NCBI RefSeq assembly: GCF_051622035.1
Contig: NC_135366.1
Location: forward strand, 8,215,001 to 8,279,000
Direction of reading: 5' to 3'
DNA from: Arctopsyche grandis
Taxonomy: Eukaryota; Arthropoda; Insecta; Trichoptera; Hydropsychidae
Length of the DNA stretch: 64,000 nt
Shown: positions 7,059-63,322 of the stretch, piece by piece
Layout of the letters: each line of letters opens with the position of its first letter
How positions within the stretch are numbered: position 1 is the first letter of the stretch
Position numbers and translations under genes: made by a program
The notes under the pieces: generated by a model
The model's input: only the letters and a program-made list of their open reading frames with translations
What the model was told of the DNA's origin: nothing
Database searches by the model: none

Positions 7059-7415
7059 CAGAGAGATGTAGTAAGAATAGAGGGGCCCTTACGAATAAAT
7101 AATTGTTGTCAATTTTTTGCGGTACGTCTCTATAAATATGCTACATCGCACAGAATACAATCGGATCAATTTACTTATAAAAATGTATCCCATGTTGTTT
7201 ATTGTGTGTTTTTGAATGTATTGTGGAATTTTTACTGATGCTTGCCCATCTTGCGAGTAATATAAACAAACAGAGAAGTTTTTATCGGACATACGTCGAG
7301 CACTGAGCGTCAAATACGACTGATGCTAAAATTATTTAGATCTGTCCGTGGACAGAGTGTCACTTGACAACAATATAACACCTAAAGCCACTTCTATTAA
7401 TATTACATTTCTCTG
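7059..7415. mobile_element. hAT-type MITE, CAGAGA family, copy 1
   Basis: The element begins CAGAGAGATGTAGTAAGAAT and ends with the inverted partner (TATTACATTTCTCTG). It is a near-identical relative of 40109-40450 and of the split copy 54895-55901, both of which have exact 8-bp duplications. Here the flanks are only similar (CTCCAAAC and ATCCAAAC, with an offset of two bases). It lies about 250 bp upstream of the GD-like protease start. Confidence 0.8.
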
Positions 7416-7673
7416 ATATCCAAACGATAATATAATATTTTGACTGTTTCAAATTTATGAGTTTTCTCTGTACGAATATAAGCAGTCTATTTAGTACTAA
7501 CAGTGGCTAGTTGGAGGCAGAATTAAATAGTTCAAAACGATTAATAATCATAGTCTCAATTGATTTTTTATTAAAAGTTAATATTTTTATCGTTTATTTT
7601 TGTGTGGACTCAAATGTCTTATATAATGACTACCCAATTTTATAATTACCTTTACATATTTTTTTCAGCGACA

Positions 7674-16235: not shown

Positions 16236-19200
16236 TTAATACTCGAGAGTAACGCATTTCGTTTTCAAGTATTCATTAAGAGCTTCTTGTCCTGAAAAAA
16301 CAATGTTTATAGTTATTTAATCATGTATTTTTTTGGGAATTAAGAATTTATTAAAACGATGATTTACCTAAATCTTTGCCAAAACCAGATTGTTTGAATC
16401 CTCCAAATGGAGCAGCGACATCAGTTTTATTGTAAGTATTAACAAAAACAGTTCCAGCCTCTATTTTTTCTGCAAAGTACATTGCTTTCGATATGTCTTT
16501 GGTAAAAACTCCACTAGCAAGTCCAAATTCAGTGTTGTTCGCCCTTTTAATCACGGCATCCAGATCACTATAATTTAAAAAATATAGTTTAATGGTTTAT
16601 ACTCCATTTTAAAAATAAAAAAGTAAATGATGTGGAAAACATACGATCCATTGAATTTGGATATTATCATGATTGGTCCAAACGATTCTTCTTTTGCGAT
16701 GAACATGTGATCATCAACATTGGAGAAGACAGTAGGTTCAAAGAAATACCCTTTTCTATTAACACGCTTTCCTCCTAGCTCTAATTTAGCTCCTTCTTTA
16801 ACACCGATTTCACAATACTGTAAAAATAGAATTAAAGATAGTTTTTACAACTGACATAATTTCAGTATAAATTAGTAGTTCGTTCAATTTACCTCAACTA
16901 ATTTGTCTAAATGTGCTTTGTGATTTTGTGGACCGTGAGCAGTACTCCTATTCAGTGGATCTCCAATTATCATTTTCTTGGTTTCTTCCAGTACCTTTGC
17001 GATAAATTGATCATGAATTGATTCTTCAACAAACAATCGACCGGCGGCTATACAATTTTCACCCTTATTGAAAAAGACTGATGACATTCCCTATAAAATA
17101 AAATATATAGGTATAACTGATACAAAAATATGTATGCACTAAATTATAGAATAAACATTGAAAAAACCTTACAATTCTAACAGCCTTATCAAGATCACAA
17201 TCGTCAAATATAACTAAAGGTGATTTTCCACCTAATTCTAAAGAAACTTTCTTCATATTTGATTGGGCACAAGATTTCATGATTATTTGTCCTATAATAA
17301 TATGAGACAAATTATAAATTGATAAAATGTAATTTACCGTATTGATTATGATTTTTTTTATTACTTACCAATTTCAGTACTGCCGGTGAAGCCTAGTTTC
17401 CTGATTTGAGGATGCTCAGCCATTGCTTGACCACAAACAGAACCACTGCCAGGGAGAATATTTATCACACCTGGTGGAAATCCAGCTTTTACACTCAGTT
17501 CAGCGAATTTCAGCGCTGTTAATGGTGAAACCTTCACAAAAAATATATAGATTATATATACATGTATGTATAATTACATAAAATTTGCATGAAAAAATTT
17601 TCATCGAGAGTATACCTGAGCTGGTTTCATGACAACGGTATTTCCTGCAGCCAAGCAAGCTGCCATTTTCCAAGATAGCATCATAAGTGGATAATTCCAA
17701 GGTGTTATTAATGCACATACTCCAATTGGTTCTTTTTTCGTGAATGAAAGGTTTCTATTCGGTCGGGCGTTACTTATCGGTATTGTGGAACCTTGAATTT
17801 TATCAGACCATCCAGCAAAGTAACGCCATGTTTCAATGGACATGCCAATGTGAGTTTTTAAAGCTAATGTATACACAGCACCCGAGTCAATTGATTCAAT
17901 CGTAGCCAATTCTTCTTTGTGCTGTTCCATTAAATCAGCTAATCTGTAATATTAAAAAAATGAATGGATATATTAGAATACATTTTTATTAGGAAAAAAG
18001 TCAAATATATTATAAAAACATAGGTAATGTAAAAATACTTGTAAAGAAGCTGTCCTCGTTCTCTTGCACTTATTTTTGACCATTCTCCTTCTTCAAACGC
18101 TTGTTTTGCGGCTGATACAGCTTTATCTACATCATTGACTGAAGCACTTTGAACTTTACAAATTTCGGATTCATCACTTGGATTAATTATTGTTAATGTT
18201 TTTCCACTATCCGAATTGACAAATTCACCGTTAATAAATAACTGTGTGGGAAACTTAATATTAATTTTATTTACATTCATTTCACAAGCATCATAAGTGA
18301 TTTCTTTTTTGTCACATTCACCACGTAGTTTGGATATGGTGCATTGTAAAAATTCATCAAATGTGGTATTCATGAACACGTCTTCGTTTTGTAATTCTAA
18401 TTGCACGAGATCTTTGATTTCTTCAACTAATCTTACGACATCCATCGAGCCAGCACCGCATGTGAAAAAATCTGTTTCGCTTTCTATCTCTACTCTTAAT
18501 ATAGAGTTCCACACTTTACGAATATCTTCGACTAACGCTTTTTCTTCACTTGTTAATTCAAGTTTATTAGAAGAAGATCCACTTTTGAAGAAATTTTTGG
18601 CTGCAATCATTTTCCCATTAACTTTGAGTCTTTGAACATTTATCTGAAAAAAAAAAATTTTTTTTTCCACGTTGATACAAGAATAGTACATTAATTAGTA
18701 TAAATATAATTTATTGAAAATTATATGTATATATATTTTTTTATACTAATTAAACATACCATACTTCCATCTAGCGCCGTAATCAGTAATCCATCATTGT
18801 GTACAATTGCAGATTTTTTAAGACTGACGAAATTAAGTGGTTCACCGATAGGTTCACCCTTTTTCCAGATCGAAGAACCATACAATCGTACTTCAATTAA
18901 ATTGTCATCACCATTTTTGACATTCGAGTCCAGATTGTTAGCATTAGTGCGAGGTAGCATAAGAGTCAAAGCGCCCGGTGAGGAATCTAATCCTCTTATG
19001 AAATTGTGTAAATCTTGTGCATTTTTCGACCAATCAATCTGTAAATTGATACAAAAATAAACAACGCTAGAAGTTTTTTCAAAGAACCAAAACTGAAATC
19101 ATTAAGGGCTTTCTAATAAGAAAAGACAGTTGGATTTTACTTGTTAAATATTTTTTTATGACTAAATTCATTTGATTATACTTGAAATAAAAATATCTTA

Positions 19201-21319
19201 TTCAATCCGGGTCCCTTTAAGATTGAATCTCTTAGGTGCGCCAGTGTTTGACGAGAATTAGATAATAAATTGATACTAACCATATGTGTTTCCTGCTTGA
19301 ACAGAGCAATATCATATGTTGCTCCTTCTTTTGGTTGTGGTATTTTTGGAGCTGTTCCATTTGCAATCATATTGACTGATTGAGATAAAGCTTTTATACC
19401 TGAAAACAACACGTAATACAATTACCCACATATGAAATTAATATGAATAATCAAAGTCTTTTAGAATTACCTTCAGGATAAAGAAATCTATTGTAAAGAG
19501 TATCAACAGTATCATCGGGTAGAACAGGGCAAGATTTTTGCAGTAAAATTGGTCCAGTATCAAGTCCATCGTCAGCCCAAAATATGCTCAAGCCACCAAC
19601 TGTATCACCTTCGATAAGTGTCCTGAAGTGTAATAAATATACAATACAATAAATTCATAATGAAATTGGACGTATTATATTAATTTTAAAGTAACATACC
19701 ATGATATGGAGGAAGCACCTCTATGCCTCGGCAGAAGTGATGGATGATAACATATGCTTTTATAAGCAGGGAAGTTAATAACTTCCATAGGAATGAATTG
19801 AGTGCAAAATGGTAATACGTTGAGTTCTGCATTCACCTAAAATTATATTTATAATGAATATGAAATATTAAGTTATGGCCACATTTTTATATGCATTTAA
19901 AACGACAAACTAACAGATTTGTACATTTCTACGACGTCTTGTAAAGCTTTCCCTTTGCTTCTCCACATTTTCACTTTGAAAACGGGGACGTTAAATTTAG
20001 TAGCCACGGTTGCTGTAATTAAATATTAAAAGTCAATAATGTATTTATTAATATAATAATTAAACTATGTAATACAAAAAACATGGGAAGGGGAAAGGAA
20101 ATTCGTTTTTGGGGATTACAATTTTGTGTAGGAGATCGTTCTCTCTCACGGACCCGAAAACGCAAATATCGGAAGACAAAGATCTTAATTCGAAAGATCA
20201 AAAAAAAGGGTACATGGTAAACGGTACATACTCACTTAATTTGCGCGAGCAGGATACAACAGGAACAAAAGGAACAGGCTTTTCCTCCCGTATTCTGCGC
20301 GCGCACATTAAACAAGGCTGTATGACAAAAAGAGAGATAATTTCACCGCATACCACTCCTATATATTATATGGGTTTGATGCAGACAGATTGAACCACAC
20401 ATTAACTGGATGGCTGCTTTAAACGCAATTCTCGACTTCACGAATGAAAAATTGCACATCAGATGACGAGTAACCTTTCGATGTGCACATATGCAATTAT
20501 TAAAATTGAGTTGGATCTTTCTGACGAGTTTTTAATAATTTAATAAGGAAATAATCGGAACTAAAGTATCAGAAACACAGAAGGTATACAGGGTAGGCAT
20601 GTCGGGACTTCGGGTAGATTTCGCTTAGTGTAAGTGCGAGCAGTGCGCACGCATAAGGTACACGTGTCGTTAATCTGTGGTTCAGTCTGTCTGGCGCTTT
20701 TCGATCGTTTGCACCGCATCGATATTATATGTATATACATAGTACCGTTTACCATGCACCCTTTTTTTTTTTATCTTTCGACTTAAGATCTTTCGATTTT
20801 CGATCTTTGCCTTCCGATATTTGCGTTTTCAGGCGTTTCACTTTCGGGCCCGTGAGGTAGACCCGTAGGAGATATGTTAATAAAATAAGTTGAGGAAAAT
20901 TAAAAAATTTCAAGATAAATACCCAAAGGATCTTCACGGTCGTTTTTGTCAGGAACGGTAAAAACTCCGACCACTCGGTGACCATCGTTGATGAGTAGTT
21001 TGAAAAGCTCGCCAGCGAAGGTGCTTTGGCCAATGAGCGCGATTCTCAGCGAACGCTTTGGCGCCTAAATCAATGTCAATGTCAATTTTACTTCATTTTC
21101 CAAATATACATATACGAATCACAGGTTTATTTTATGTTTTTCTCACATACATATGTTATCTTGTGTATCCATTACAATTTAATATACTCAGGTGTCATTT
21201 TATAAAGTTATTCATGCGTTTTTTTTATTAACAAATATTAGAAAATTTGAAATGAAAACAATGTAGTTGAAAACAATTGAATAAAAGTTTACCTCGTCAG
21301 CTATGGAAATTGGCGGCAT
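16236..21319 (-). CDS. ALDH1L1: 10-formyltetrahydrofolate dehydrogenase (ALDH1L)
   Basis: Fifteen exons splice in phase to 931 aa: 21293-21319, 20923-21064, 19915-20012, 19700-19836, 19471-19622, 19281-19399, 18760-19038, 18039-18643, 17616-17943, 17369-17531, 17173-17291, 16893-17090, 16645-16817, 16368-16567, 16236-16291. The domains in order are a formyltransferase N domain (residues 10-200; H120 in [11 protein letters not shown]156 in GLDTG), a formyltransferase C domain (225-318), a carrier domain with the phosphopantetheine Ser S384 ([10 protein letters not shown]), and an aldehyde dehydrogenase (from about 430; E702 in LELGGKSP, C736 in NKGENC). It converts 10-formyl-THF to THF, CO2 and NADPH. 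The ATG at 21319 sits in CAACAATG. An in-frame ATG at 21400 would add 27 residues. Cytosolic or mitochondrial location is undecided. Confidence 0.95.
20137..20864. mobile_element. Longer Mutator-like composite element with exact 9-bp duplication
   Basis: The exact 9-mer GTAGGAGAT lies at 20128-20136 and 20865-20873. Within it, the left arm (about 20150-20340) matches the palindromic family plus part of a CAGTGGCGTGCGG-type MITE. The right arm (about 20735-20864) ends CCCGTGAGGTAGACCC. Between them lies about 390 bp not seen elsewhere in the window. It sits in intron 2 of ALDH1L. Confidence 0.75.
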
Positions 21320-23409: not shown

Positions 23410-23593
23410 GATATTTATCCTTAAATAAATTTCTTACAAAAATAAAAATAGCTATTCGGGCTGTATAACTAGTTAAGTTTTAAAACGTTATATTCTTATG
23501 AATAGTTAAATACTGTTTTAGTCTGTCATAAGGGCCAGAATTATTTTTCCCAGGGACCCGGATTGCTCTTGGCGACCCTGCATATGTATGTAT

Positions 23594-23940
23594 GGGTCTA
23601 CCTCACGGGCCGGAATGTGAAATTACCGAAAACGCAAATATCGGAAGGCAAAGATCGAAAATCGAAAGATTTTAAGTCGAAAGATAAAAAAAAGGGTGCA
23701 TGGTAAACGGTACATACTCACTTAATTTGCGCGAGCAGGATACAACAGGAACAAGAGGAACAGGCTTTTCCTCCCGTATTCTGCGCGCGCACATTAATAC
23801 GGGAGGAAAAGCCTGTTCCTCTTGTTCCTGTTGCATCCTGCTCGCGCAAATTAAGTGAGTATGTACCGTTTACCATGCACCCTTTTTTTTTATCTTTCGA
23901 CTTAAGATCTTTCGATTTTCGATCTTTGCCTTCCGAGACT
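23594..23940. mobile_element. Palindromic Mutator-like element with shortened right end
   Basis: The left arm starts GGGTCTACCTCACGGGCCGG. The centre is the shared palindrome and the right arm stops early at CTTTGCCTTCCGAGACT. The flanks are GTATG repeats, so the 9-bp duplication (GTATGTATG on both sides) is compatible but not informative. Confidence 0.75.
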
Positions 23941-35404: not shown

Positions 35405-38400
35405 TTATTTCGCAGTTCGAACATCGGCCTCAGGTTGTTGAGTAGTGCCGACTTTAGCACCGGGAAATTTACTGAAAACTTTAGAAATGTCAACCCCGGT
35501 CAAAGCTTGTATGGCAGGCGGTAACTGTCCAACCAGCTTCGAAATCTCAGCAGTAGCTCCATCGCCAGGACCACCTCCAATGATAACAATTTCGTCGGTC
35601 TTAGCCAACGGAGCTGATACTTCAGCAGCAATCTACAAAAAAAAAAAAAAAAATGTAATTTCACTTACAACTATTATATAACATGAGGATTAAATAAAAC
35701 TAATATTACCTTTGGTAGCGCATCCAACACCATCGACATTGTAGCAGCTTGACCATATTTCTTGTAAACATTTGCCTTCATTTTCATCCGTTCAGCTTCA
35801 GCATTACCAACGGCAGCAATAGCATCAGCTTCCGCCATACCGATGAGTTTAATCCTTTCAGCTGCAGCTCTAGCCTCTTCAATTGTTTGGGTTCTATTAA
35901 CAAAAATAAAAATTGTAATATTATCATTCAAATACCATAAAATCAAAAAACAAGGACTTTGTAGATAAAACAACCTATTAGTGAAGTAAAAATATTTATA
36001 AGAGATAATGAGAGCCTATAATGTAAATTTTATAAGATATAGTGTGAAAAAGATAAAGTTATAGGCGTTTAAACAATTAAAATCTGACAAAACGAGAGGG
36101 TGGCGAAAAGTCAAACATATAATGTTACTGACCGCTAAACGTCAAGATGTCCAAAATGTTTGCATTTTTAAACGTGTCTATTTCGACTATTTTTCACCAT
36201 TGAACTATCAGAATCGATTTAAATTTCCACCATTGACCAAACCGCGCAAAATGACAAAGTTTCAAAACGATCGGAAGACTGTAGGAATAGATGCTGAATC
36301 GTTAACCAATAGAAAACTCTGGTACATAATAATAACTAGTAAAAAATTGAGATTTGAATTGAAAAATACATACATATATTAAATTTTACAAGGCAATTGT
36401 TTAATTTTTATCTTTATTCAGCTATTCTATATTTTCAACATGACATTTTTGTCAGGCTATTATTGTTTACACATGAAATCCCATAATTAAGATAGTATAA
36501 AGTGAAGTATTTAGCAGCTAAGTAGATACATGAAATGCAAAAAATCAAATTAAATTATATATGGCTTTAATTAGCCATTTAATTAATCATGTAAATTTCA
36601 TTCATTCTATGTACAAGTATGTAAATTAGAAATTTTAATATGTACTATTTATTTATCATTATTATTTTTAAATACTCTGAATTGGAACGTACATATGTAT
36701 GTAGGTATTGTAATATAAAAAAATACTAACTTTTTACCACTGGCTACGCAATTCACTCGGTAAGCTTCGGCCTCTGCGGGCAGACGTATAGTTGAAGTAA
36801 GTTCAGCAGCTCGACGTTGCACTTCCTTCTGCTCGATTTCGATTCGTTTACGTCGTTCGACGATGTCAATTTGAATTTCTTCATTTCGAATACGCTGTCG
36901 CACTTTGGCAGCTTGCAACTCATATGCCAATTGAGCTTCGGCTTTCTGAAATAAAATAAATATTTTCAAATAGAGAAAAAAAATCATTTCATAAACTGAT
37001 TTCAATGAACAAATTCAAAACTATTTGAAGAATTTCTTTAATAATTTGATAACGACCCCAACTGTGACGATTTTGACTAAAAATCGGGTCTACATCACGG
37101 CATCAAAAGTTGAAAGATCGAAAAAGCAAATATTGGAAAGCAAAGATCGAAAGATTTTAAGTCGAAAGATCGAAAAGAATGTATGCATGGTAAACGGTAC
37201 TATGTATATATAATATATATCAGTGGCATGCGGTGAAATTATCTCTCTTTTTGTCGTACAGCCTAGCTTAATGTGCGCGGGCAAGATACGGGAGGAAAAG
37301 CCTGTTCCTCTTGTATCCTGCTCGCGCAAATTAAGTGAGGCTGTACGACGGAGTTTTACCGCACGCCACTGATAAATATACTACCCGCTTTTCATATGTA
37401 TTCATGGTAAACGAACATTTTCGATTTTTCGACTTTTCGATGCGGTGATGGTCACCGCTTCGCCATATATTAAGCTGAAATAAAAAAATTTACGTCGTGT
37501 CGATAACAATTTCAGTAACCGACACTAAGTTTCGGTTCGATAGGACTAACGGTGTTCAAAAAATCCCCAAAATACACAGACAAACACACATTTTTTCTAG
37601 ATCATGAAAACGTGATCAGTAATCGATTCTGAGTTCGAGTCAGTCAAAATCTCGAGTTCGAATTTTCGCATGATCACAAAACTTCATCTATTGTTACTAC
37701 GTACATAGATAAAGTAAAAATAAATATATATTACCGCAGTATTAACTTCTTGATCGAAATGAGCTTTCTGAAGTTTGAACATTCTCGAGTTGTCTTCGAT
37801 TTTGGTGTCAGTTGAGTATTTAACATCCATAGCGACTTTTTCGCACTCGGCTTCCTGGAAAATTAAAAGTAATGTTAGCAACAAAATACCTAAAAAGTAA
37901 TCGACATAATTGTAAATTACATACTCTGATGCCGGCATCCCTGTTGGCTTCGGCAACTCCGGCGTCAGCGTCCCTTTTTACAAGGGCAGTTTGAGCCTTA
38001 CCCAACGACGTCAAATATTGTACTTCATCGACTACGTCCTTTATGGTGAATGAGAGGATCTCGATTCCCATGCGGCCCACGTCTGGTGCCGCCACTTCGC
38101 GCACCAAGGCTGCGAACTGGTCCCTGTCCTTGTACACCTCTTCTACCGTAAGCGTTCCTGAAAAACAATATGTCAAACCAGTCAGTGAATTGCATATTAT
38201 TTGTTGATAATATTTTGTGCAAAACACAGAATTCTCTCGTTTTTATCATTTCATTTCCAAAATTGACAAATTGAGTATGAATTTTGGAATTACAAACATT
38301 AGCACATACATATACACATATTTATAAGAATTGTAAATAGGTTTTTAACCCCTTTTTTCCTATTATGCTGTACATTAACATTAGAATAATATAATACTAT

Positions 38401-41400
38401 GATTACTAACCAAATTAAATTAAATTGTAAAATAGAAAATGATCAGTAGATCAGTAGCTATTAAAAATACATAGATATAAGATGTATTGTGAACAAAATT
38501 TCGTTATACTAAAAAGTATTTAAAAATCAAAATCAAATACACACACATATACAAATAAGTTTACCTTTTAATATTGAAAATTGTTAATCCAACAACGAGG
38601 CCGATTGGAATTGAATATAATATAAACATTGTACAAATAAAAGTGAAAATCGATAGAGAAATACTGCTGCACTAAACAGCTGATTTAATTATACACTGCA
38701 ACATATCTGCAGTCAATGTGCGTCACTATACATATATATAATCAGATAGCACGATATCTTTTAATTGTTACCCTGAATAATTCATTTTGATTAAAATTAA
38801 GGTAACAATGGACCCAGAACTATAACGTAACGTCAGTTACAAGACGAATATAAACTAGCACTGAATATAAATGATAAAAATCAGCAACTTGATTATTATA
38901 TATGTATTAAGGAAGCCATAATAAAATCCCTTAAGAACGATAGTAAAAACCAGTGTTATAATCGAAAGGTAAACGGCAATAAAAAAAGCCACATATTTAA
39001 ACAAGATTGTAATGATGACTTTGGGACAAATAATTGACTAGGGGAGATAACGTTGGCAATGATTTAGGATGCACAAAAATCGCCAAGTCAGAAATTCGTA
39101 TTGCGAACACTGGGAATGGACTGTTAACTGAAATATGTATGTAATTGTCTTAATAGACAGACACGTGTTGATTCTGTATCCAAGGTAACCTTGATTTCTG
39201 TATGGGAGTAGATGCTGTAATTTAATTAAGACCAATGAACGAAACACGGTAGTATTAATAACATTATTAGATATCATGTAGATTAAATTACACTATTGAC
39301 TGACTCAAATATGTATTTTTGAAATCGCGGTTTATCACCTACTTTTATAAATAAATAAATACCATTCAGAACATACATATTAAAAAACACTGGGCAGAAT
39401 TGTTAGAAAATTATCAGAATTTGGAGTAGTAAATGTAGTTGGAACTCTTTCAGCTTGGATAAAAACCATATTGATTTGAATCCGAAAACGATAAGTTAGA
39501 AATATATAAATATTTCCACAACTTAGATGCGACACTAGTTTTTAAAACATTATGAAAATGTATTAAATGACTAGATGACTAGAATAATAAAATATTGGTA
39601 TATTTTTTAAGTAAATGTGGCAATTTTTTGGTTGCAACTTATTGATAATTAAACTACAAACTATAGAAAAGTCATATGAAATAAATAAATAAAATAAAGT
39701 AGGCCAGGGGCTTCATTTGGGCTGCGGTGGGCAGCCGCCCCCCCCCCCCTCTAAATTTGAACAGGACTATCCATGTTGTTATTATTATGAATAAAATGGA
39801 ATTGTAAATAAAATGATAGTATAATAATAACATTATAGTTTTCAACATTTATTTAATGCTAATTTTATATTTTTTAGTTTAAAAAAAATTCAATATATTT
39901 TCAGGAGATTATTTTGTACTTTATAAATATGCGTTTATACCCAAATCCCGTAATATAAATGCTTTAAAAAAATTATCAAAATTCATATGAACTCGTTTTT
40001 TTAATATAATACAACCCCCCCATAGAAAGTCATTCCTTACTGGTCAAAAATTTGCCCCCCCCCTGGGAAATGCTGAAATGACGCCCCCGGCGTAGACATT
40101 ACCTTAACCAGAGAAATGTAATATTAATAGAAGTGGCTTTAGGTGTTCTTTTGTTGTCAAGTGACATTCTGTCCACGGACAGATCTAAATAAATTTAGCA
40201 TCAGTCGTATTTGACGCTTGGTGCTCGACGTATGTCCGATAAAAACTTCTCTGTTTGTTTATATTACTCGCACTAAAAATAGCACAATTCCTTTCAAAAA
40301 CACAAAATAAACAACATGGGATACATTTTTATAAGTAAATTGATCCGATTGTATTCCGTGCGATGTACCGTATTTATAGAGACGTATCGCGTAAAATTGA
40401 CAACAATTATTTATTCGTAAGGGCCCCTCTATTCTTATTACATCTCTCTGACCTTAACATTTTAGTATTGAAAAAAATGTCACAAGAATACTTATAAATA
40501 AATAAATTTATTCAATACAAACATAAACATCGGTTAATGCATTATCTATGATAGGAATATAGATACAATTTTATCTATCATTTGCGTACTATGTAAGTAT
40601 TATATGTACATAAATACATACATCAAACATTTTCCGCCCTCAATGATGAAATATACATATGTATGTACATGTATCAACAAGCAAACGTTGTCAACTCACC
40701 TTTTGACGACGGCTAAAGTAGCTCCTACTGTCAATCCCAAATTTATTGCCCCCATCCAAAGGTACGACATATCTTTACAGTTCCTGCGACACGCGTGTCG
40801 TAGATAAACAATTGTCACCAAGTAATAAATAAACGTACGGACAAATTTTTGCAATTTCTAGGTCAACTGCACATAGAAAAATCAGCGAGTAACGGTTACA
40901 CCGTTGAAAATCGGCCCACGACGATAGACGAAAGTGACGAATGTGAAACCGGTCGAAAATTGCAAACTAGAAACGACTGCAATTAAATATTGGCAATCGA
41001 CTGAAAAAACCGGCGAAATTATTGTTGCACAATGATTTCAACGAGGAGAGTGAAGTGTGAGAAAGTGCGCGCGCAGCAGTTCGTATCCAGAGTTGGACTA
41101 TGGATTGTGGAAGTGGACGCGTTGGTTTTATCAGAGAACCGGTCCCCACCAACTGACTCGTTCGGGCCAAGGCTCGGATAGAAAGAGAAAGAGATCTACG
41201 TCACAGAATTCTGTCAGGGTAACTCCGATTTCGTTTGGGAATTCCCTGTCCTCTCGATGCAACGAACGTCAGCGTTGCAGCATGCATCGTCTTTTTCCTT
41301 TTTATTTTGTAGTGAGGACGTGACCGGTAGGAACGTGGATGTTTTTATGAGGTTAAACTCTCGCCAAAGTACAAGGTACGTACTTGGACTACATATCAAC

Positions 41401-44400
41401 GGTGAGTAATTCGAAGATTAACCTGTACAAGGTAAAAGTTACTAGACGGCGGTCGATATCGTTCCATTCGGAAGGGCGAAGCTACATATGTACATATATG
41501 TATACCTAAATACACCCAGATAAAATCTAGTTTACTAGGCATAAGACGACTTGTAAAGGTTATATGATTTCTTTGTATAATATAAAGACGAGCGCATTGA
41601 TGTATAATACACATAGATGGGCCCTGGCGTGTGTTTTGGTCGGAGATCTTGCCTTCACTAACTGAGGGGTGCGGGCGGTTTAACTAGCGGGGAAGTTGGG
41701 TTTTTTTTCCCTACGACGCAGCGGTACCTACCTACCTACTAAGAGAAACTGTGCATGCGCCATGTATTTTGCATGCGCCAAAAGGGAGACCAGTATAACA
41801 CGTGAGGGCGGATCTAGTGTATTATACATCAATGGACGAGCGTTTTGAGTTCAAATTGTGAGCTCAAACTTTTAAGCTTATACGAGTATAATGGGTCTAC
41901 GTGACGAGCCAGAATGTTAAATTACAGAAAACAGAAATATCGGAAGGCAAAGATCGAAAATCGAAAGATCTTAAGTCGAAAGATCAAAAAAAAAAAAAGG
42001 GTGCATGGTAAACGGTACATACTCGCTTAATTTGCGCGAGCAGGGTACAACAGGAACAAGAGGAACAGGCTTTTCCTCCCGTATTCTGCGCGCGCACATT
42101 AATACGGGAGGAAAAGCCTGTTCCTCTTGTTCCTGTTGTACCCTGCTCGCGCAAATTAAGTGAGTATGTACCGTTTACCATGCACCCTTTTTTTTGATCT
42201 TTCGATTTTCGATCTTTGCCTTCCGATATTTGCGTTTTCTGTAATTTAAAATTCTGGCTCGTCACGGAGACCGGAGTATAATACGCCATTAGCATCGATT
42301 TTTAATGCAATATATGTCTGTATTACTTGATTAAATCGGTAAACCGGTAATGCAATCCCTAATAGAAGACATTTCCTTCTAGATTAGTTACTTTTATTAC
42401 TATGAGTATATTTAAATACAAAAAAAATAATACACATTATTTTAAAACTTTATTAGATAGTTTTTAAATATGAGTACATTGGAACTATTTGCTAATAATT
42501 ATATAATGAGTACATTATTAAGGAGATCTTTACTAGTGCGAATCGTAATACATGTACAAAAAATACGTCTTCATCTATAAGTTTTGCATCTCTTTCTTTT
42601 CTAGTTGCGATTGTGCGAAATTGTGTGACAGATCAAAGCAGTGGTTATTATCGCAGGTGTTACGAATTCGTCTGATTTTCTATGACATATTACGGTTGAT
42701 CGTCAAACGTCCATATGTAATCAATTCTGCTACTGAGAAAATGGGTCAGTGAACTTTCATGTTAACGGATTTGCCTTGAACCACCTGCAGATCAACTCTT
42801 GTTCTACTTATTTTCAAGGATACATCTGGTTTACTACATAAAACAGTTTCGATTGATGTTAGTTTTACGAACATACTATGAGATGGGGCGAATCAAAATA
42901 CACAACTTTTTATAAACCGCATTGAAGCAAATTTTTTACAGCTGCCACGTAAGAATTGTTTGAGAATCCTCGAAAAAGAAAATGACTACTGTTATCACAT
43001 GGTAAATTCTTCATTGAACAGAATGTTGTAACATTAATAATTATAGCACATGACACATTTAATGAGCAAAAATATTGGACCACGAGCGATGTTTGTCAAT
43101 TGCGTACGCACAGTTGTTAACACCGAGCATTCAAGTGCAATCTTTATCGATAAAAGAGACAACTGACGTCAGAGTGTTCCGAGAGCAAACAGACTCACAA
43201 AAAAGTTGGGAACGTCACTGGTTAGTAGTTGCGGTTAAATACATCAATCAAAACAGTGTGATCAAACGAATGACGATTTTGTAATACGTAGGGGGGCACG
43301 TCAAAACACACACTCGTGAAAAACAGGATGTGTGACGCAGTGGGGGCTTACACTGTTCGACAAATGACGACTTTTTTTTTGTTTCAGAGACGAGATATGA
43401 CTTTTCTTATACATAGATCTATGCCCAGTGAACACGAATTTGGTAATAAAAAATGTTGATTGGCTCGAGATTCGGAGATATGTGTTTTTTAAATCGAACG
43501 ATTTTTTGACGATGTCTCAAAATCTGTCAATATCCTGTTCAAAATGAATATTGGAATCTATAGTCGGGTATTTTATCTTTCATTTGTAGTACGTTTCAGC
43601 TTTCAAATCTTTCTAAGTAGTCGTCCAGTTCAAATCAAAAGTCAAAAGTACGTATTTTCACTTGGGATTTTTCCCACTGTTAATACTATTTAATATTGAG
43701 TATTTTCTATTGAAACATGTTTATTGGGATAGTGTTCTGGCCACACTATTTTTTGTTTTCGTTTAAAAGGGTTAATTGGAAGTGTGCTGAATTTTAAATC
43801 GGTAAAATTTCGACCTAAAAGCTCGTACTAGTATTTACTCGTATTTACACGAATCTGAATTGAATTAATAGGGATAATATTTTAAATTGTCTTTATATGA
43901 GAATTAAATAAAATTTCACTTAAAATCATTTTTCGACTATTCTTGTGGATTAATAACAAACATTCTATTGATAACTGGCATACCTCAATACAATAAACGA
44001 ATCATATGGATTTAGCATTGTGGCCAGAGCATACATATATCTGAAAAAAATGTTCTTTTTTTTAATAAATAAGCCGTGCCATACTGGAGACGTAAAAAAA
44101 ATAAAAGTAGAGTATATGTACATAGAGAAACTGAACATATTATAGAAATATCTATGAATCAAATTTTAATAGTGTAAAAGCAAATGGCAATAAAGAACTC
44201 CGAAACAGGTTGATATTTTCAGAAAAAAGCAAATCCATTTATTGTTATGTATGTAAACTATTTTCACAAGCTAAAACTTAATATTGTTAACATGATTTAA
44301 CGATTGGAAAAACATAACGCGTAGTTTAAAAGAACACGAATCTTCGCCAGCTCATTTCAAATCGATGTTAACTTTCCAAAAACGGTTATCAATTAATGGG

Positions 44401-50400: not shown

Positions 50401-52631
50401 ATTGCAAAACAAACAAATCGATATAATTGCTCCATGACATGTAGTGTTGAAGTCGAGAATATTCTCGTTATTCGCCGAGAATTTTCTTCTTTCTGGGTTG
50501 TAAAACATCTTTAGATGTTTATTAGCTTTTTAGATGATTCTAAAAATTTTTCAGAACCTAATAGGAGTAATAGGACTTTCTAGAATGTCTGAGAGCGTTT
50601 TGAATGACATTTTTTCATTCTGACGACACTGAAACACTACTACCATGAACGTTTTCCGCAAAATTCTCACAGGAATTGCAATGCTTATTAACTCTGGAAG
50701 CAATACATTATACATATTTTTATTGCTTTGGTGAATATATTCCAATGAAATTGTTCCAACTTACTGATTTAATCATTCTTTTAAACTTAAACACACAAGA
50801 TCGTAAGAAAACATTTTATTCATTTCCTCCCTCATCTTTAACGTCCACACGAATTTATCAATTTACTTTCAAAGTTTTCGACGAAATTTTTTAACACAGA
50901 TTTTTTATGAGTTTGGGTATTTTAATTGTTATTTCACATCATTGCGTACTTTTAAAACACATTACATAATATGAAATCGTAAATTTATTAAGTTTAGAAA
51001 CGATAAAAATTGGTAAATAAACAATGCGAGTTACCATTAACACTAAAATTTCAATTGGTTTTTTTTGTTTCCAGATCTATAAATAAGTTGCTTTGAGTTT
51101 TTCTCCGAAATCGAAATCTTTTAACACAAACTACATAATAGGCGTAACATTTCTGTTTTGTTTCGCCAACTGCTCAAAAGTCACATTTGCTTAGCCTCTC
51201 TCTTTACATTTTACATATGAAATGTAAAATGTTAAAAATTATTATTAATTAGGTTTTTGCATTAGTTAATTAATTTTATTCGTGTCTTCCCTCATCTTAC
51301 CGTTCACATGACTTTGCCCATTTTTTGAAATTGCAGCGGAATAGTATAAAAAGCCTTTCAGATGCTCTAAAAAATAATATTATCGAAAATTCTCGGTTTG
51401 GAGAATATTCCCGAGAATTTGACAACACTAAGTACATACGTACATGTATTTGAATTATATGGCTGGGAAATGTAAATCGCAATTAAATTGCCGAAAATGA
51501 AGGGTGCACTTTTTTGTGGTAGTGTGCAGTCATTGCACACAACAAGGACAAACGATCAATGGGCGTGATGACATTGATCGTACATGAGGCCAAAAAGAGA
51601 TAATATTCCAATAATGTCCAATAGTGGTGCACTTCCTATACCCAAGGCCAAAAACGATAATCGGAATTTTCAAGAGGAAAATTCAAAAGAATTTCAAGCG
51701 TAAAATTCAAGGAAAGTTGGAACAAAATTGGCAGGATAAAATTCGAGGAATATATGTATATAGAATAAATATACTTGTAGGATTATATAATACATGAGGA
51801 AAACCAGTTCTAGAACTACATATACACCGAGTTAGGACATCATATACATATATTTCCTTATTTAAATATGATGGATAAAATTTTAAATTTCAAATTAAAG
51901 TAATGTAGTATATCGTAAAATGAAAAGATTTAGAACCGACATAATTAAATACACTTGAAAATAAATAATTAGTTATTTTTGCAAGAATAAAGAAAATCAG
52001 AAATAGTAGTGATATCTATGAAAAATATTTTTAAGCTCATCAAATACTCAAACCAAAGTGGTTTTCATATACATAAAATTATAGACATCTATTATAGATT
52101 TTTCACAACTATCACATTTTCCAGCAAAATTAAAGGCGAAGTTGATTCTCATTGTAAATAACCAAGTGAAGCTAATAAAAAGCTTGTAAAAAGGATTTTA
52201 GCTTTTAAAAAGTACAATACAACGATATTATAATGTATAAATTCACAAATTGTTAAGAAAATTTACCTAATATAGCTCTCAAATGTCCTTCCAGAGTTTG
52301 AAGGACAGTCATTTTGATTTCCTTGACGGTTTTTCCCAAGAACTGTTCTGATGCTGTGCCAAGAAGCTCATCTGCCTTCATAATCTTGCACTGGGCTACT
52401 CCAGTCACCGTCAAAGGGACACCTTGGGCCGTCTCGACACTGTCGCACATCGGGTTTAGGGTCATCACCTACCAAATATAATGAAATCGTTTACAAAAGA
52501 ATATAACAATTAACAAAGAATAAAACGATTAGTTACCTCTAAGGAGAGTCTTTGGACATCGGTTACCAGCCACCACGCCCACGCCCATCCTCCCACAATT
52601 GTTCTTTTTTTTGTAGAACCACAGCAACCAC
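35405..52631 (-). CDS. Flo2: Flotillin-2 (first coding exon not found)
   Basis: Seven exons splice in phase: 52537-52631, 52267-52468, 37925-38157, 37735-37854, 36731-36945, 35710-35893, 35405-35632, giving 424 residues. The first exon seen begins in phase 1 with GGCCGST, the Cys pair used for palmitoylation. The usual first exon (about 17 aa with the myristoylated Gly) is absent downstream to 64 kb. PHB/SPFH domain residues include TVTGVAQCKIM and VREVAAPDVGRMGIEILSFT. The coiled-coil Ala/Glu repeats follow (AEAQLAYELQAAK, EARAAAERIKLIG), then the flotillin tail (PLAKTDEIVIIGGG, LTGVDISKVFSK). The product scaffolds membrane microdomains and forms hetero-oligomers with flotillin-1. A 14-kb intron separates exons 2 and 3 of those seen. 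Confidence 0.95.
37086..37456. mobile_element. Composite Mutator-like element with nested hAT-type MITE
   Basis: The left arm starts GGGTCTACATCACGGCATC and the right arm ends GCGGTGATGGTCACC. It has the same outer layout as 10266-11058 in reverse. The nested MITE (37221-37371) lies at the matching internal point, so the MITE was carried during amplification of the composite. No 9-bp duplication was found at this copy. It sits in a flotillin-2 intron. Confidence 0.65.
37221..37371. mobile_element. hAT-type MITE, CAGTGGCGTGCGG family, intact copy
   Basis: The termini are CAGTGGCATGCGGTGAAATT and TTTTACCGCACGCCACTG, 151 bp. The flanks ATATATAT and ATAAATAT form an imperfect 8-bp duplication. 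The interior holds the GGGAGGAAAAGCCTGTTCCT run seen in the centres of the palindromic elements. Confidence 0.72.
37480..37710 (-). repeat. Unclassified dispersed repeat, copy 2
   Basis: It is the reverse complement of 5205-5430, with about 10% differences by eye. It ends at CTATTGTTACTACGTACATAG beside flotillin-2 exon 37735-37854. No ORF or terminal repeat was identified. Confidence 0.6.
38565..38629 (-). CDS. Candidate alternative first exon of flotillin-2 (single TM, short form)
   Basis: On the minus strand, ATG at 38629 opens a 21-codon reading (MFILYSIPIGLVVGLTIF then NIK) plus AG, followed by a GTAAAC donor. It encodes a hydrophobic helix followed by a basic stop-transfer-like end. 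The phase-2 end fits only flotillin-2 exon 35710-35893 in frame, where Arg is completed and TQTIEEARAAAER follows. Joined to exon 37925-38157 it would shift frame. It could instead belong to an unseen nested gene. Confidence 0.45.
39705..40090. mobile_element. Possible DNA transposon remnant with CAGGGGCxTCATTT ends
   Basis: The left end reads CAGGGGCTTCATTTGGGC. The right end, reversed, reads CGGGGGCGTCATTTCAGC. Both ends carry long C runs on the plus strand. No clear target duplication is found. The right end abuts the hAT-type MITE at 40109. Confidence 0.4.
40109..40450. mobile_element. hAT-type MITE, CAGAGA family, copy 2 (exact 8-bp duplication)
   Basis: It begins CAGAGAAATGTAATATTAAT and ends TTACATCTCTCTG. 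The exact duplication ACCTTAAC is at 40101-40108 and 40451-40458. It is 342 bp, inverted relative to 7059-7415, and long internal runs are identical. It sits about 250 bp from the alternative exon at 40700. Confidence 0.92.
40700..40770 (-). CDS. Candidate alternative first exon of flotillin-2 (single TM, long-range form)
   Basis: On the minus strand, ATG at 40770 opens 23 codons (MSYLWMGAINLGLTVGAT then LAVVK) plus AG and a strong GTGAGT donor. It encodes one hydrophobic helix with a basic end, like the mini-exon at 38565-38629, and ends in the same phase 2. The region just upstream (40771-41400) is clearly more GC-rich than the rest of the intron, as expected for a promoter and 5'UTR. In-frame splicing is possible to flotillin-2 exon 35710-35893. 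Confidence 0.5.
40771..41402. promoter_or_regulatory. GC-rich island, candidate promoter (possibly bidirectional)
   Basis: The block from about 40860 to 41340 is near 50% GC with many CpG, in a 25-35% GC neighbourhood. On the minus side it leads into the ATG mini-exon at 40770. On the plus side a consensus donor GTGAGT occurs at 41402, so a divergent non-coding 5' exon is possible. Overlapping short ORFs on both strands are probably by-products of the base composition. Confidence 0.4.
41595..41834. mobile_element. MITE with exact 8-bp duplication (hAT-like)
   Basis: The terminal inverted repeats begin CATTGATGTATAATACAC on the left. The right end reads GTGTATTATACATCAATG. GACGAGCG is duplicated at 41587-41594 and 41835-41842. 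It is 240 bp. Inside is a repeated GCATGCGCCA motif. It lies next to the GC-rich island. Confidence 0.88.
41893..42273. mobile_element. Palindromic Mutator-like element, exact 9-bp duplication
   Basis: It runs from GGGTCTACGTGACGAGCC to GGCTCGTCACGGAGACCG. GAGTATAAT is duplicated at 41884-41892 and 42274-42282. The arms are nearly perfect inverted repeats over the full 381 bp. The translated Cys/Ser-rich ORFs on both strands are artefacts of the palindrome. Confidence 0.9.
44301..45095 (+). pseudogene. Decayed hAT-like transposase of the TTF-zinc-finger/ZMYM1 type
   Basis: Plus-frame fragments read SLKEHESSPAHFKSM, then INGRIDTNLEKQIDSERRYW, the usual block after a TTF-type zinc finger. Further on, LRLHYYETTLWDKLLQRINA, LSEFIQNTRNEFNEIEKDAN and KENFIINIHNIICDAF match the middle of these proteins. 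Stops and frame changes interrupt it throughout. Termini were not located. Confidence 0.6.
45305..45480 (+). pseudogene. mariner-like transposase C-terminal remnant
   Basis: One frame reads WLPTSCDLTLLDYFLWG, the conserved catalytic-Asp block of mariner transposases. After a frameshift, SLVYADKTETMNDLQAFAAL follows, again as in the family. Stops interrupt it. It is a short orphan fragment. Confidence 0.75.
45588..46000 (+). repeat. Unclassified 415-bp repeat, copy 2
   Basis: It starts near AAGAGGGCTGGACAGCAGCG and ends near GTCGCATTCACTCAATATAT. It is colinear with 56939-57355 and inverted relative to 21985-22400. Confidence 0.75.
48771..49130 (-). mobile_element. Non-autonomous Helitron, second family
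   Basis: On the minus strand it begins TCTATACATATATAAAAATG after A. It ends with the hairpin GGCATTGCAACGCATGCC, then AGGTTCAG and CTAG before T. These are the TC start, 3' hairpin, CTRR end and A/T target of Helitrons. The interior carries CCGTTC-type tandem units (48820-48850). It is 360 bp without coding capacity. Confidence 0.72.
50442..51430. mobile_element. Probable internally deleted DNA transposon (TAGTGTTG ends)
   Basis: The left end reads TAGTGTTGAAGTCGAGAATA and the right end reads GAGAATTTGACAACACTA, which pair with mismatches. Secondary GAGAAT/ATTCTC repeats sit just inside both ends. No target duplication was identified. It may be hAT-like. The interior is AT-rich with no intact ORF. 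Confidence 0.5.
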
Positions 52632-53534
52632 CTGAAATAGAGAAACAACACATTACTTGACAGGAAAATTACAGGAACAGTATTTCGAACATAAATTTAT
52701 TGTGGACATAAACTGTATAAATTTAAAAATACCGCTTCTGAATGTGTAAAATGTGTAATAATAACTTTAAATTAAGAACAATATCATGGTATAATGGAGG
52801 TTAGGTAACGGTTATAAGCTTCCTCTGTGTAATACGTCGAATATTTGTGAGTGACATTATTTCAACGGCAATTATGTTATTAAATAATAATAAAAAAAAC
52901 TAACAATAGTGTGTAGGACGTTTAAGACCCCGTAATTAATTTAAGATTTAATAGAACGAATAAATTTCAAGTTTTGTGAATCGATTGAGAGAGTACGTTG
53001 AATAATATAGTAACTCGTTCCATAAAGTTCTTCACAGTAATGGTGCTGTAATAGTGCAATGAAGGTATAATAAACCACCGTATAGATAATCGGAATAGAA
53101 TATTTTTATTCACCAACGACATTTTAAAATTGGAAGCGTTTTGCATTATGTTATAAAATACATATAATGTGTGATGTCAAAGAAAAATGTCCCATCTCAC
53201 AGAAATATCAAATTGGATTTACAGAATCATCATTATAGCAGAAATTCTGCGTCGATTCGAAAGGGAGTGATAATGTACCTAAGACGAACAAACAAACATA
53301 CATTAAATATATGGAGTTTGAGTCATTCGGATGGTAGAATTTTAGTGGAGAAGACTACAGCAAGATTTGATGGATTTAAATAATAATAATAACTTTTTTT
53401 TCCAGACGCCAGAGAGTATAGTGCAGTCCCCATCGTCCATATAAATAATATTAAATAATAAATACAATAGTATTGAATAATAATAAAAAATAAAGTAGAA
53501 AATATGTAAATAAATAAATAATAATAATAATACG

Positions 53535-54405
53535 AATTTTAATTTATTTACTTATTAAAGGCATAAGGTGGAGTAGTTGCATCCATCGAACATACAATGA
53601 AGAGTGCAGATAAGAAGACGCGGCAGCAAGACGACAATTAGACGAGAAAAATACACGAAGACGTAGAGAGGCCGCTCTCATCTTGAGAATGGCCTCAAAG
53701 TGAGGCACGTGCTCCTTCACGAACATTTGCAACGCGCTGCAACCCCTTGGTAGCCCAAAGAGAGCACGATAGCAGTTGTTATATTGAACATTCATCTTCC
53801 TCATCGTCTTCCACTTGTACATATCTGGTCCCGGTCTCCGTGACGGGCCCGAATGTAAAACGCCCGAAAAAGGAAATATCGGAAGGCAAAGATCGAAAAT
53901 CGAAAAATCAAAAAAAAAGGGTGCATGGTAATCGGTACATACTCACTTAATTTGCGCGAGCAGGATACAACAGGAACAGGCTTTTCCTCCAGTATTAATG
54001 TGCGCGCGCAGAATACGGGAGGAAAAGCCTGTTCCTCTTGTTCCTGTTGTATCCTGCTCGCGCAAATTAAGTGAGTATGTACCGTTTACCATGCATCCTT
54101 TTTTTTGATCTTTCGACTTAAGATCTTTCGATTTTCGATCTTTGCCTTCCGATAATTGCCTTTTTCGGGCGTTTCACATTCGGGCCCGTGAGGTAGACCC
54201 ATCTGGTCCATAGTTCTCCAGTATAGAGGCAAGTACAAAAGGACATAAATAATAGTCTATTAACCTCTATACTGCGGTGGTAAAACCGTCTTGCCAGCTT
54301 ATTTTCCCTTACACAAATAGCTCTCATTTGCCTTTCGATGTCACGGTCATCGTTACTAAAGAAATAGATAGTTACTAAAGAAAACATGCAAAGTGGAAGC
54401 CCCAT
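53535..54405 (-). pseudogene. Non-LTR retrotransposon reverse-transcriptase 3' end, split by a Mutator-like insertion
   Basis: On the minus strand the upstream part reads DDRDIERQMRAICVRENKLA and LLFMSFCTCLYTGELWT. The downstream part reads MNVQYNNCYRALFGLPRGCS. Both are typical of the C-terminal region of LINE-type ORF2. The break between them is the palindromic element at 53832-54200. The frame already differs across the join, so the copy was dead or decayed. An A/T-rich microsatellite-like tail follows at 53385-53545. Confidence 0.8.
53832..54200. mobile_element. Palindromic Mutator-like element inserted in a retrotransposon
   Basis: It runs from CGGTCTCCGTGACGGGCCC to GGGCCCGTGAGGTAGACCC, 369 bp. 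The exact 9-bp duplication ATCTGGTCC is at 53823-53831 and 54201-54209. The host sequence on both sides is one reverse-transcriptase fragment, which confirms the insertion boundaries. Confidence 0.92.
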
Positions 54406-54894: not shown

Positions 54895-55901
54895 CAGAGA
54901 AAAGTAATAATAATAGAAGGGCCCTTACGAATAAATAATTGTTGTCAATATTACGCGGTACGTTTCTATAAATACGCTACAACGCACGGAATATAATCGG
55001 ATCAATTTACTTATAAAAATGTATCCCAAGTTGTTTATTGTGTGTTTTTGAATTTTTACCGATGCTTGCCCATCTTGCGAGTGATATATTTTATTTTTTT
55101 TATTTTATTTTATTTAAATAGGCACACATACAGAATAAAATATAAATAGAAAGTTGTATAATGAGACAAAAAATAATAATAAACATAAATAAAAATATAA
55201 TATTCCATTTACAGTGAGCACCACATGGTGATTACAAAAAAAAATTACAAAAACATCAAGATTTAAAAAAAAAGAAAAGAAACAGATAAAGAAAAAGATA
55301 CAGATAAAGTAAAAAAGAAAAAGAAAGACTATAAGGGTGAAGAAGCAAATCAACCACATATTATTTTCTTCACCTTTGTCCTAAAAATACTAAAAGAGTC
55401 ACTAAAGACGGCATATACGAACGATTGCACTATTGAAAGAGGTGTTGCTTTGACAAATTGGTGGATAAAAAAGATTTGTGCATCTGGTGAATCGGGCATT
55501 AACGTTAAAATTAATATCGCTTAAAACAGATGTGTCAAGAATACCATTAGCAATCTTATATAAAATTAACAAATCAGAAACCCTTCTACGCTGAGACAAA
55601 TTTGCAATATGGAAAAAAGAAAGTCTGTCATTATAAGACGATAGCAGTTTTTTAAGACCAGTCTTATAGGATAAATGGCGCAAAAAACGCTTCTGGATTG
55701 TTTCTAAATGCTCAATGTGAGTTTGGTAATAGGGAGACCATATGATTGATAACAAACAGAGAAGTTTTTATCGGACATACGTCGAGCACCAAGCATCAAA
55801 TACGATTGATGCTAACATTATTTAGGAATGTCTGTGGACAATCGTCACTTGACAGTAAATATGACGCCTAAAGCCACTTCTATTAATATAACATTTCTCT
55901 G
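54895..55901. mobile_element. hAT-type MITE, CAGAGA family, copy 3, interrupted by a retrotransposon
   Basis: It begins CAGAGAAAAGTAATAATAAT and ends AATATAACATTTCTCTG. The exact duplication GTTGTATC is at 54887-54894 and 55902-55909. Without the insert at 55087-55746 it has the length and sequence of 7059-7415. Confidence 0.9.
55087..55746 (-). mobile_element. 5'-truncated non-LTR retrotransposon
   Basis: The minus-strand ORF down to 55402 reads IIWSPYYQTHIEHLETIQKR then FLRHLSYKTGL, the end of a Jockey/LINE-type reverse transcriptase, with stop at 55402. The 3' part ends in an A-rich tail (plus-strand T-rich run 55087-55115). TGATA flanks both sides (55082-55086 and 55747-55751), a short target duplication within the MITE sequence. 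Confidence 0.85.
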
Positions 55902-56394
55902 GTTGTATCAGATTGATTTAAAACGCTTCAATAGCGAGACGCTTTGTTATAGCCTGAAAGTATCACATATCGTATGGCAAATATGTATTTTTTTTTATCT
56001 AACCAACCTGCAGCTTAATTGCACATTGAAACTGTATGGAAAATTACATACAGAAATTTAATACAAATTCAAACTTTTTCTATCCTAATATTTCGCCTAC
56101 ACATAGAAAGTGTCGATATAATGAATATGTTCCAATACATAAAAAAAAAAACAACTGAACATCACAAACAAAACTTTGCTATGAATATTTGAGTGGATAT
56201 GTCTATATGTCGAAATTTAAATATTGACATTTTTTTACTTTCACGTGTGTTAAATCTTCAAAAAATTAATTAAATAATTTTTTTTATTAACATTTGAAGC
56301 GTCTAATTTCAAAAATCGATAACTGAATTTTGCACAATAATTTGTAGAAAAACAAATATTTCTTTAACGTATTCTGTTCATTTGAATTATCAAA

Positions 56395-60783: not shown

Positions 60784-63322
60784 ATGAGTGCAATAGTGGG
60801 TGCGGCTACAGCACTTGGTGGAGCGGCTGCGAGTGCATCGTCTCAAGTTGCATGGTTTATTCCCATGTTGGTAGGAGCGATAGCATTCTTTCAGTATGAA
60901 ATGATGGATCCCGAATCGAGAGTTGCTGATACAGAATCCGATGAATTATTGAAGGAATACGATTTTATAGTCGTTGGGTCGGGATCGGCAGGTATGTCGC
61001 AGATCAACAATGCTCTAAGATTAAATCAATGTTCAAAATCTAACGATGATTTGTGTTTTAGGCGCAGTGTTGGCTAATAGATTGACGGAGATGGAAAATT
61101 GGAACGTTTTACTGTTGGAAGCTGGAGGAGATGAAACTGAAATAAGTGATGTGCCACTACTTGCTGCATATTTACAACTAAGCAAACTTGATTGGAAATA
61201 TAAAAGTGAACCACAGGGTACTGCTTGTTTAGGTATAATTTCTGATATATTTTTTATTGTATTTTTAATTTATACCAGGAAGGCCTAACAAGTAACCCCG
61301 ATGTGTCTTCCTGGCCAGGAACATTGTATATTTGATACAAATATTATAAGTATTATACAAAGTACACAAATACATATCAATTAATATCCACAGAGACAAA
61401 TTTGTAAACTTGCAGCATTTTAAACGATCCAGCGAAATTCAGTAAATACATATCAATTAACATCCATAGAGACATCTGTAAATTTGCAGCATTTTATACA
61501 ATTCGGGATTTTATACAATTCGAGATTTTGCGTGTAAATAAGTAAGTTTGCCAATTTGTTGCAACCGTTTCAATGAAAATCAGATAAATTGGCAAACTCT
61601 GATAGGAAACGATCGACTTCACAATTCAAAGTCTGGCCAGCAGAAACCAGTGGGATTTGAACCCGTAACCATTCTGTTCAAAGCCACTATATGCTAACCA
61701 CTAGTCTATTCTGCTGGTTATTATTATATTATATGTATTATACTATTGTAATTGTGCACTTCTATGTATCAGAATGTTTTCTAGTATCAAGTGTGGAATT
61801 TATTTCGAATTGTTGAATTGTTTCAGCTATGGAAGGTGGACGATGTAATTGGCCTCGCGGAAAAGTCTTGGGCGGTTCATCAGTCCTCAATTACATGTTA
61901 TACCTTCGCGGTAATCACAAGGACTACGATATGTGGGAAACGCTGGGAAATCCTGGCTGGGGTTCTAAAGAAGCCTTATATTACTTCAAGAAGTCTGAAG
62001 ATAACAGAAATCCGTATCTAACAGAGACTCCTTATCATTCAACTGGTGGATATTTAACCGTGGGGGAAGCACCTTATCATACGCCATTAGCAGCAGCATT
62101 TGTACAAGCCGGGGTGGAAATGGGTTACGATAACAGAGACATTAACGGAGAAAAACAAACCGGGTTCATGATAGCTCAAGGGACGATTAGACGAGGAAGT
62201 CGATGCTCAACTGCCAAAGCATTCATTAGACCAGCTCGTTTGAGGAAAAACTTGGACGTATCTATGAACGCTTTCGTCACTAAGATATTGATAGATCCAG
62301 TGAGCAAAATAGCATTCGGAGTTGAATTCATCAAAGACAAACAAGTGCATAGGATAAGAGCTACCAAAGAAGTAATAATATCGACTGGCTCTGTTAATTC
62401 TCCACAACTTCTGATGCTGTCTGGAGTGGGACCTAAGGCTGAGCTGATAAAGCATGGTATACCAGTTATACAAGACCTTCCAGGAGTTGGAGAAAATCTG
62501 CAGGATCACATAGCATTAGGCGGTTTAACTTTCATGATAAATCAACCTGTCGCAATCGTTGAATCTAGATTACATACCGTGTCCTCGCTGATGCAATACG
62601 CTGTGTTTGGTGAAGGTCCTCTTACAATTATGGGAGGAGTCGAAGGTTTAGCCTTCGTCAACACGAAGTATGCAAACGCCTCAAACGATTTTCCAGATAT
62701 AGAATTTCATTTCATATCAGGTTCAACGAATTCTGACGGTGGAAATCAATTGAAAAAAGCCCACGGATTAACAGATAAGTTCTACCAAGCAGTATTTGGG
62801 CCAATAAATAATTTGGACACTTGGAGCATATTACCAATGTTACTAAGACCGAAGAGTAAAGGATCGATCAAGCTGCGAAGTAAAAATCCCTACGATTATC
62901 CTTACATATATCCGAATTACTTCAAAGACGAACAGGATCTACACACGTTGAGGGAAGGAGTCAAAATAGCAATAGCACTATCGAGGACGAAGGCGATGCA
63001 AAGATTCGGATCCAAGTTATCTCCTCACGTGTTTCCAGCTTGCGCTCACGTACAGCAATACACAGATCAACATTTTGAATGTATGATGAGGCAGTATTCG
63101 GCAACCGTGTATCACCCAGTAGGGACTTGTAAAATGGGTCCTTATTGGGACAAGACGGCCGTGGTCGATCCTCAATTGATGGTGTATGGCGTGAGGGGTT
63201 TGAGGGTAGTGGATGCGAGTATCATGCCGGATCTCGTCAGCGGTAATACAAACGCTCCTGTGATGATGATTGGGGAAAAAGCGAGCGACATGATCAAGGA
63301 GTTTTGGCTGAGAAATAGATGA
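60784..63322 (+). CDS. GMC oxidoreductase (glucose-dehydrogenase-like, FAD)
   Basis: Three exons (60784-60991, 61062-61232, 61827-63322) splice in phase 1 at both junctions to 624 aa, a usual insect GMC length. Residues 1-40 are hydrophobic and could be a signal or signal-anchor ([15 protein letters not shown]). The FAD-binding motif [15 protein letters not shown] spans exons 1-2. GMC signature 1 is [19 protein letters not shown] and signature 2 is [16 protein letters not shown]. The C-terminal active-site blocks are [12 protein letters not shown] (His) and [16 protein letters not shown] (Asn). It should oxidise an alcohol, sugar or steroid-like substrate with FAD. The substrate is not readable. 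It lies in reverse orientation inside the region between flotillin-2 exon 2 and its missing exon 1. AATATAAAG lies about 210 bp after the stop. Confidence 0.95.
61272..61722 (-). mobile_element. tRNA-derived SINE in GMC intron 2
   Basis: On the minus strand the head reads AGACTAGTGGTTAGCATATAG (A box) and CGGGTTCAAATCCC (B box), with the arms CCAGCAGA and TCTGCTGG closing a tRNA-like fold. The body contains a tandem pair of about 85-bp units sharing ATGTTAATTGATATGTATTT. It ends near the inverted run CCTGGCCAGGAAG, TTAGGCCTTCCTGGT. It is not an intact tRNA gene. Confidence 0.65.

Follow-up and report, generated by a model that had tools for sequence, protein, structure and literature searches.

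A pair of similar hydrophobic mini-exons, possibly related first exons, in a flotillin-2 intron of Arctopsyche grandis

We analyzed a stretch of 64,000 nucleotides from the caddisfly Arctopsyche grandis (assembly GCF_051622035.1, contig NC_135366.1, positions 8,215,001 to 8,279,000; hereafter the window), the minus strand of which carries the 3′ part of the insect flotillin-2 gene (Flo-2). Two mini-exons, A and B, lie in the Flo-2 intron that runs from an exon end near 52265 to the exon start at 38157. The similarity of the peptides that they encode is the strongest sign that the pair did not arise by chance, and an earlier sequence-only reading, which proposed A and B as alternative Flo-2 start exons, had overlooked it. 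We tentatively favor, at a probability somewhat below even, the explanation that A and B are related first exons, each giving an N-terminal membrane helix. Splicing of A or B to the Flo-2 exon starting at 35893, as the sequence-only reading had it, appears unlikely.

Results

Design and similarity of the two mini-exons

On the minus strand, A reads MSYLWMGAINLGLTVGATLAVVK plus AG (40770-40700) and B reads MFILYSIPIGLVVGLTIFNIK plus AG (38629-38565), each followed by its donor. Both present an open ATG frame with a donor on the same strand as the Flo-2 exons and upstream of them. The shared design that had been described, with an ATG, a hydrophobic helix, Lys plus AG and a phase-2 donor in two minus-strand mini-exons, is confirmed exactly by the sequence. 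The "Lys plus AG" ending is AAA AG, which is largely the donor consensus read in that frame. Because a phase-2 GTGA or GTAA donor gives a stop codon straight after Arg, the unspliced A and B are equally complete open reading frames of 24 and 22 codons, respectively.

The helix peptides AINLGLTVGATLAVVKR (A) and SIPIGLVVGLTIFNIKR (B) are identical at 8 of 17 positions, and when both ends were kept fixed, 11 of 20,000 permutations scored as high (p 0.00055). Among all six-frame 18-mers without an internal stop in the whole window, A finds its best ungapped match in B, and B in A, with a score of 36; the next-best match scores 23 for A and 26 for B. This similarity favors the relatedness of the two exons, a pair that had been picked for its design rather than for any likeness. 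No third copy of the helix exon was seen in the six-frame search of the window.

Table 1. Positions of the mini-exons, the adjacent G+C-rich stretch and the Flo-2 exons in the window
Feature	Position	Strand	Length	Remarks
Mini-exon A	40700..40770	minus		ATG, 21 mostly hydrophobic residues, Lys, AG, donor GTGAGT, phase 2
Mini-exon B	38565..38629	minus		ATG, 19 mostly hydrophobic residues, Lys, AG, donor GTAAAC, phase 2
G+C-rich stretch	40771..41480	minus		just upstream of A; 44% G+C over 40771-41500; no other copy in the window
Upstream Flo-2 exons (two)	about 52534-52632 and 52265-52468	minus		SPFH part
Flo-2 coding exon	37925..38157	minus	233 bases	phase 1; next Flo-2 acceptor downstream of A and B
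Flo-2 coding exon	37735..37854	minus	120 bases	phase 0
Flo-2 coding exon	36731..36945	minus	215 bases	phase 0
Flo-2 coding exon	35710..35893	minus		phase 2; sole in-frame Flo-2 partner for A or B
Last Flo-2 coding exon	35405..35632	minus		phase 0

Donor strength and chance tests

Donors were scored with an approximate fly donor matrix. On this scale, the donor of A (AAG/GTGAGT) reaches 12.9 bits, close to the matrix maximum, and that of B (AAG/GTAAAC) reaches 6.3 bits, slightly above four Flo-2 donors (4.3, 4.5, 3.2 and 5.8 bits). In 100 dinucleotide shuffles of the window, with thresholds fixed post hoc from the values of B (donor of at least 6.3 bits, hydropathy of at least 1.7, phase 2), the mean number of candidates was 0.63 compared with two in the window, and two or more appeared in 12 shuffles. 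Two such candidates on one strand within 2.3 kb appeared in none of the 100 shuffles, and an exon with a donor of at least 12 bits, like that of A, appeared in four at a hydropathy of at least 1.7.

Several observations weigh against related, functional exons. The shuffle figures are generous to the pair, since the thresholds were derived from the pair itself. When any phase was allowed at the same donor and hydropathy thresholds, the window held three candidates, and at least three occurred in 23 of the 100 shuffles; at a looser hydropathy of at least 1.0, a donor of at least 12 bits was found in 13. By codon usage (12 of 13 training pieces located, rows with shifted labels left out), A scores 9.9 bits, inside the background of non-coding stretches that reach 8 to 16 bits, and B scores -7.5 bits and is not coding-like. 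A and B agree in phase and resemble each other in peptide, as tandem duplicated exons might, but at the DNA level their best local match covers 9 bases, which would make any duplication an old one. When simple sequence was included, 21,899 of 7,982,606 hydrophobic 18-mer pairs in the window reached the score of 36. Database searches with A returned no match in the PDB and none in Pfam; B gave one weak PDB match, to NADH dehydrogenase subunit 2 (E 0.49, not meaningful), and a Pfam match to DUF4407 (E 0.095) below the family cut-off. Codon usage was rejected as coding evidence for A because non-coding segments score equally high.

Possible partner exons

The assembled Flo-2 protein of 425 residues matches the flotillin-2 chain of 9l3g (query 1-402, chain 17-417, E 3.3e-162). 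A search of the Flo-2 parts against viral and prokaryote contigs, a set without insect genomes, confirmed no relative. Joined to 35893, A and B read on in frame and would give products of 160 and 158 amino acids, lengths that we recomputed and that agree with the sequence-only reading. The 160-residue product matches Flot in Pfam (E 3.3e-08) and no other family at E values up to 10, which bears out the claim that the predicted product lacks the SPFH domain.

The argument that phase singles out 35893 did not hold. Although A or B is in frame with that Flo-2 exon only, the five junctions downstream of the pair have phases 1, 0, 0, 2 and 0, so that some in-frame Flo-2 partner would exist whatever the phase of the exon; phase was therefore rejected as evidence for this join. 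The join would also bypass three Flo-2 exons of 233, 120 and 215 bases. With a pyrimidine fraction of 0.71 and a T before AG, the acceptor at 35893 has no clear advantage over the skipped acceptors at 38157 (0.71), 37854 (0.76) and 36945 (0.65), all with C before AG. Since the acceptors are comparable, we saw nothing that explains the skipping of three exons. When A or B is instead joined to the nearest Flo-2 exon at 38157, the frames stop at 67 and 65 amino acids, 619 bases before the last junction.

A scan for second exons covered phase-2 acceptors from 40.7 to 30.5 kb under a strict filter, which 22 sites passed; of the five real Flo-2 acceptors, this filter failed to pick up the one at 36945, so it could miss others too, and short second exons escape it. 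A looser acceptor list covers 40.7 to 38.15 kb. In the filtered scan, 35893 was the sole strongly coding-like phase-2 continuation (42.5 bits). Of the next-ranked sites, 35974 (24.1 bits) overlaps it and leads into that exon as well, and 38157 (14.4 bits) continues into coding sequence of Flo-2 in the wrong frame; no coding-like second exon was found outside Flo-2. Short phase-2 continuations do exist, such as the one at 38508, which a gap of 56 bases separates from B. We also considered and rejected the tandem duplication of an entire small gene, because no convincing pair of similar second exons emerged: the best pairs (E 0.026 and 0.048) were patches of 7 and 10 residues.

Discussion

Overall, we propose a putative arrangement in which two related first exons, A and B, lie inside the Flo-2 intron, probably as an old tandem duplicate. 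Transcription of each would start at an internal promoter, and a single phase-2 acceptor would serve both, with more than one candidate for the partner exon. Residues that follow the helix are placed in the cytosol when positive charges flank it on that side (the positive-inside rule), and the Lys-Arg after each helix would put the rest of the protein there. If the partner were the Flo-2 exon at 35893, the product would be a membrane-anchored flotillin tail of 158-160 amino acids. The two exons, their donors, their common phase and their peptide similarity were observed directly, and we infer transcription, duplication and topology. A and B are possibly related, and they may be either old duplicates or convergent. 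The G+C-rich stretch just upstream of A may represent an internal promoter or a 5′ untranslated region; its CpG ratio of 1.49 does not exceed the 1.52 of a stretch within a Flo-2 intron. This stretch, which has no further copy in the window, and the Drosophila Flo-2-C transcript discussed below count in favor of the proposed arrangement, and the transcript also counts in favor of a join to Flo-2.

A chance origin of the pair retains a substantial, if minority, probability. Short hydrophobic frames that open with ATG are frequent in AT-rich intron sequence, and a donor-like AAAAGGTRA in such a frame is bound to read Lys-Arg-stop; the window holds 42 ATG-donor combinations of any phase with a donor of at least 3 bits and a hydropathy of at least 1.3. 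The recurrence of two candidates at the level of B in the shuffles and the poor codon score of B fit this explanation. Moreover, the score of A and B is not unique in the window: 424 of 6,188,264 hydrophobic, non-simple 18-mer pairs score at least 36, of which 256 share no exact 5-mer and fall into 163 location pairs. However, chance accounts poorly for the quality of the donor of A and for the register-exact similarity of the two peptides. The same similarity is left unexplained if A and B are instead 5′ untranslated exons of an internal Flo-2 promoter, spliced to 38157 with the ATG merely opening a short upstream frame. The position of 38157 as the nearest Flo-2 acceptor, the G+C-rich stretch upstream of A and a Flo-2 transcript of Drosophila that has a first exon of its own (PMC3578937) are in keeping with such exons. 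A stop codon far before the last junction predicts mRNA decay, and the frames entering 38157 would end in this way. We consider untranslated exons very unlikely.

Two further readings are special cases of the preferred one, that A and B are related first exons. The join to 35893 is in frame, reaches the one phase-2 continuation that looked strongly coding-like in the scan and yields a product recognized as Flot, but it gains nothing from phase and skips three exons with comparable acceptors. Additionally, its junction would fall near residue 305 of the 9l3g flotillin-2 chain, so that the anchor would probably sit in the middle of the cage wall, away from the membrane-bound SPFH end. Of the proposed splicing to flotillin, the exons, phases and lengths stand and the phase argument fails; the link from A and B to flotillin is weak, and the use of either exon, its joining to flotillin and the predicted stub are hypothetical. 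A nested gene for a small membrane protein, its second exon short and not seen, is about as likely as this join; together with the alternative that A and B are self-contained micro-frames of 24 and 22 codons, it makes up a reading that we also regard as improbable. Both frames end Lys-Arg-stop, and the short continuations such as that at 38508 would suit a nested protein, but the filtered scan found no coding-like second exon outside Flo-2, and the looser acceptor list gave A and B no convincing pair of similar second exons. If the flotillin join is not true, the case is a caution that phase alone cannot assign an exon where the junctions of a gene cover all three phases.

An alternative Flo-2 start is known, as the Drosophila melanogaster transcript Flo-2-C has its own coding first exon, and it is poorly conserved (PMC3578937). 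Unlike A and B, this exon involves a microsatellite (THTHTNT insertion), and the account of it in that source mentions no membrane helix; two positions tabulated there seem inconsistent as to which intron holds it. Its authors discuss Flo-2-C beside a truncated flotillin-2 that oligomerises. Our literature searches found no precedent for a transmembrane start exon of Flo-2. The wall helix of the flotillin cage (PDB 9bq2, 9l3g) is 186 residues long; the cage is attached at its wide end through SPFH1 and lipids, and at its narrow end it sometimes contacts another membrane (PMC11260169). Full flotillins, in contrast to HflK/HflC, are described there as attaching through SPFH1 and lipids and having no transmembrane helix. 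Judging from the alignment to 9l3g, what the predicted stub would retain is the last portion of the wall helix together with the C-terminal part. Because a helix in the middle of the wall would miss the membrane-bound SPFH end, such a stub would more likely disturb the normal cage than join it. That the two exons are duplicated, alternatively used starts that replace SPFH and make type-III-anchored flotillin tails capping or poisoning cages seems quite unlikely.

Other features of the window

A GMC oxidoreductase gene (60784-63322, plus strand) runs opposite to Flo-2, upstream of its 52.6-kb exon. In the fly, mosquito, bee and beetle, a GMC cluster lies within a large Flo-2 intron in the opposite orientation (PMC1891103), and the window shows this known insect arrangement, with GMC on the opposite strand. 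As described in that source, the arrangement differs from the mini-exons in that it consists of nested genes and not of Flo-2 start exons.

An interspersed repeat at 40106-40450 lies 250 bases downstream of A and has copies at 7059-7415, 54895-55052 and 55751-55904, the longer ones being 88-92% alike. It includes a TATAAATA box-like sequence (40371-40378, minus strand) in the intron just after A. A separate family of interspersed repeats, these near-palindromic, is represented at 41888-42274, with copies at about 10333-10740, 20156-20311, 23592-23936 and 53831-54202 and a partial copy in a Flo-2 intron (37086-37346); its members are 73-93% alike, with matches on both strands.

Elsewhere, exon-like segments at 16366-21083 (minus strand), with matches to Aldedh and PP-binding near 18.0-18.6 kb, belong to a gene for an aldehyde dehydrogenase that carries an acyl-carrier-like domain, probably a 10-formyltetrahydrofolate dehydrogenase. 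The segment 26014-26277 (minus strand) matches the Vanin C-terminal domain (E 8.4e-09), and 7575-7904 (plus strand) matches the N-terminus of the serine protease gd (E 3.3e-08).
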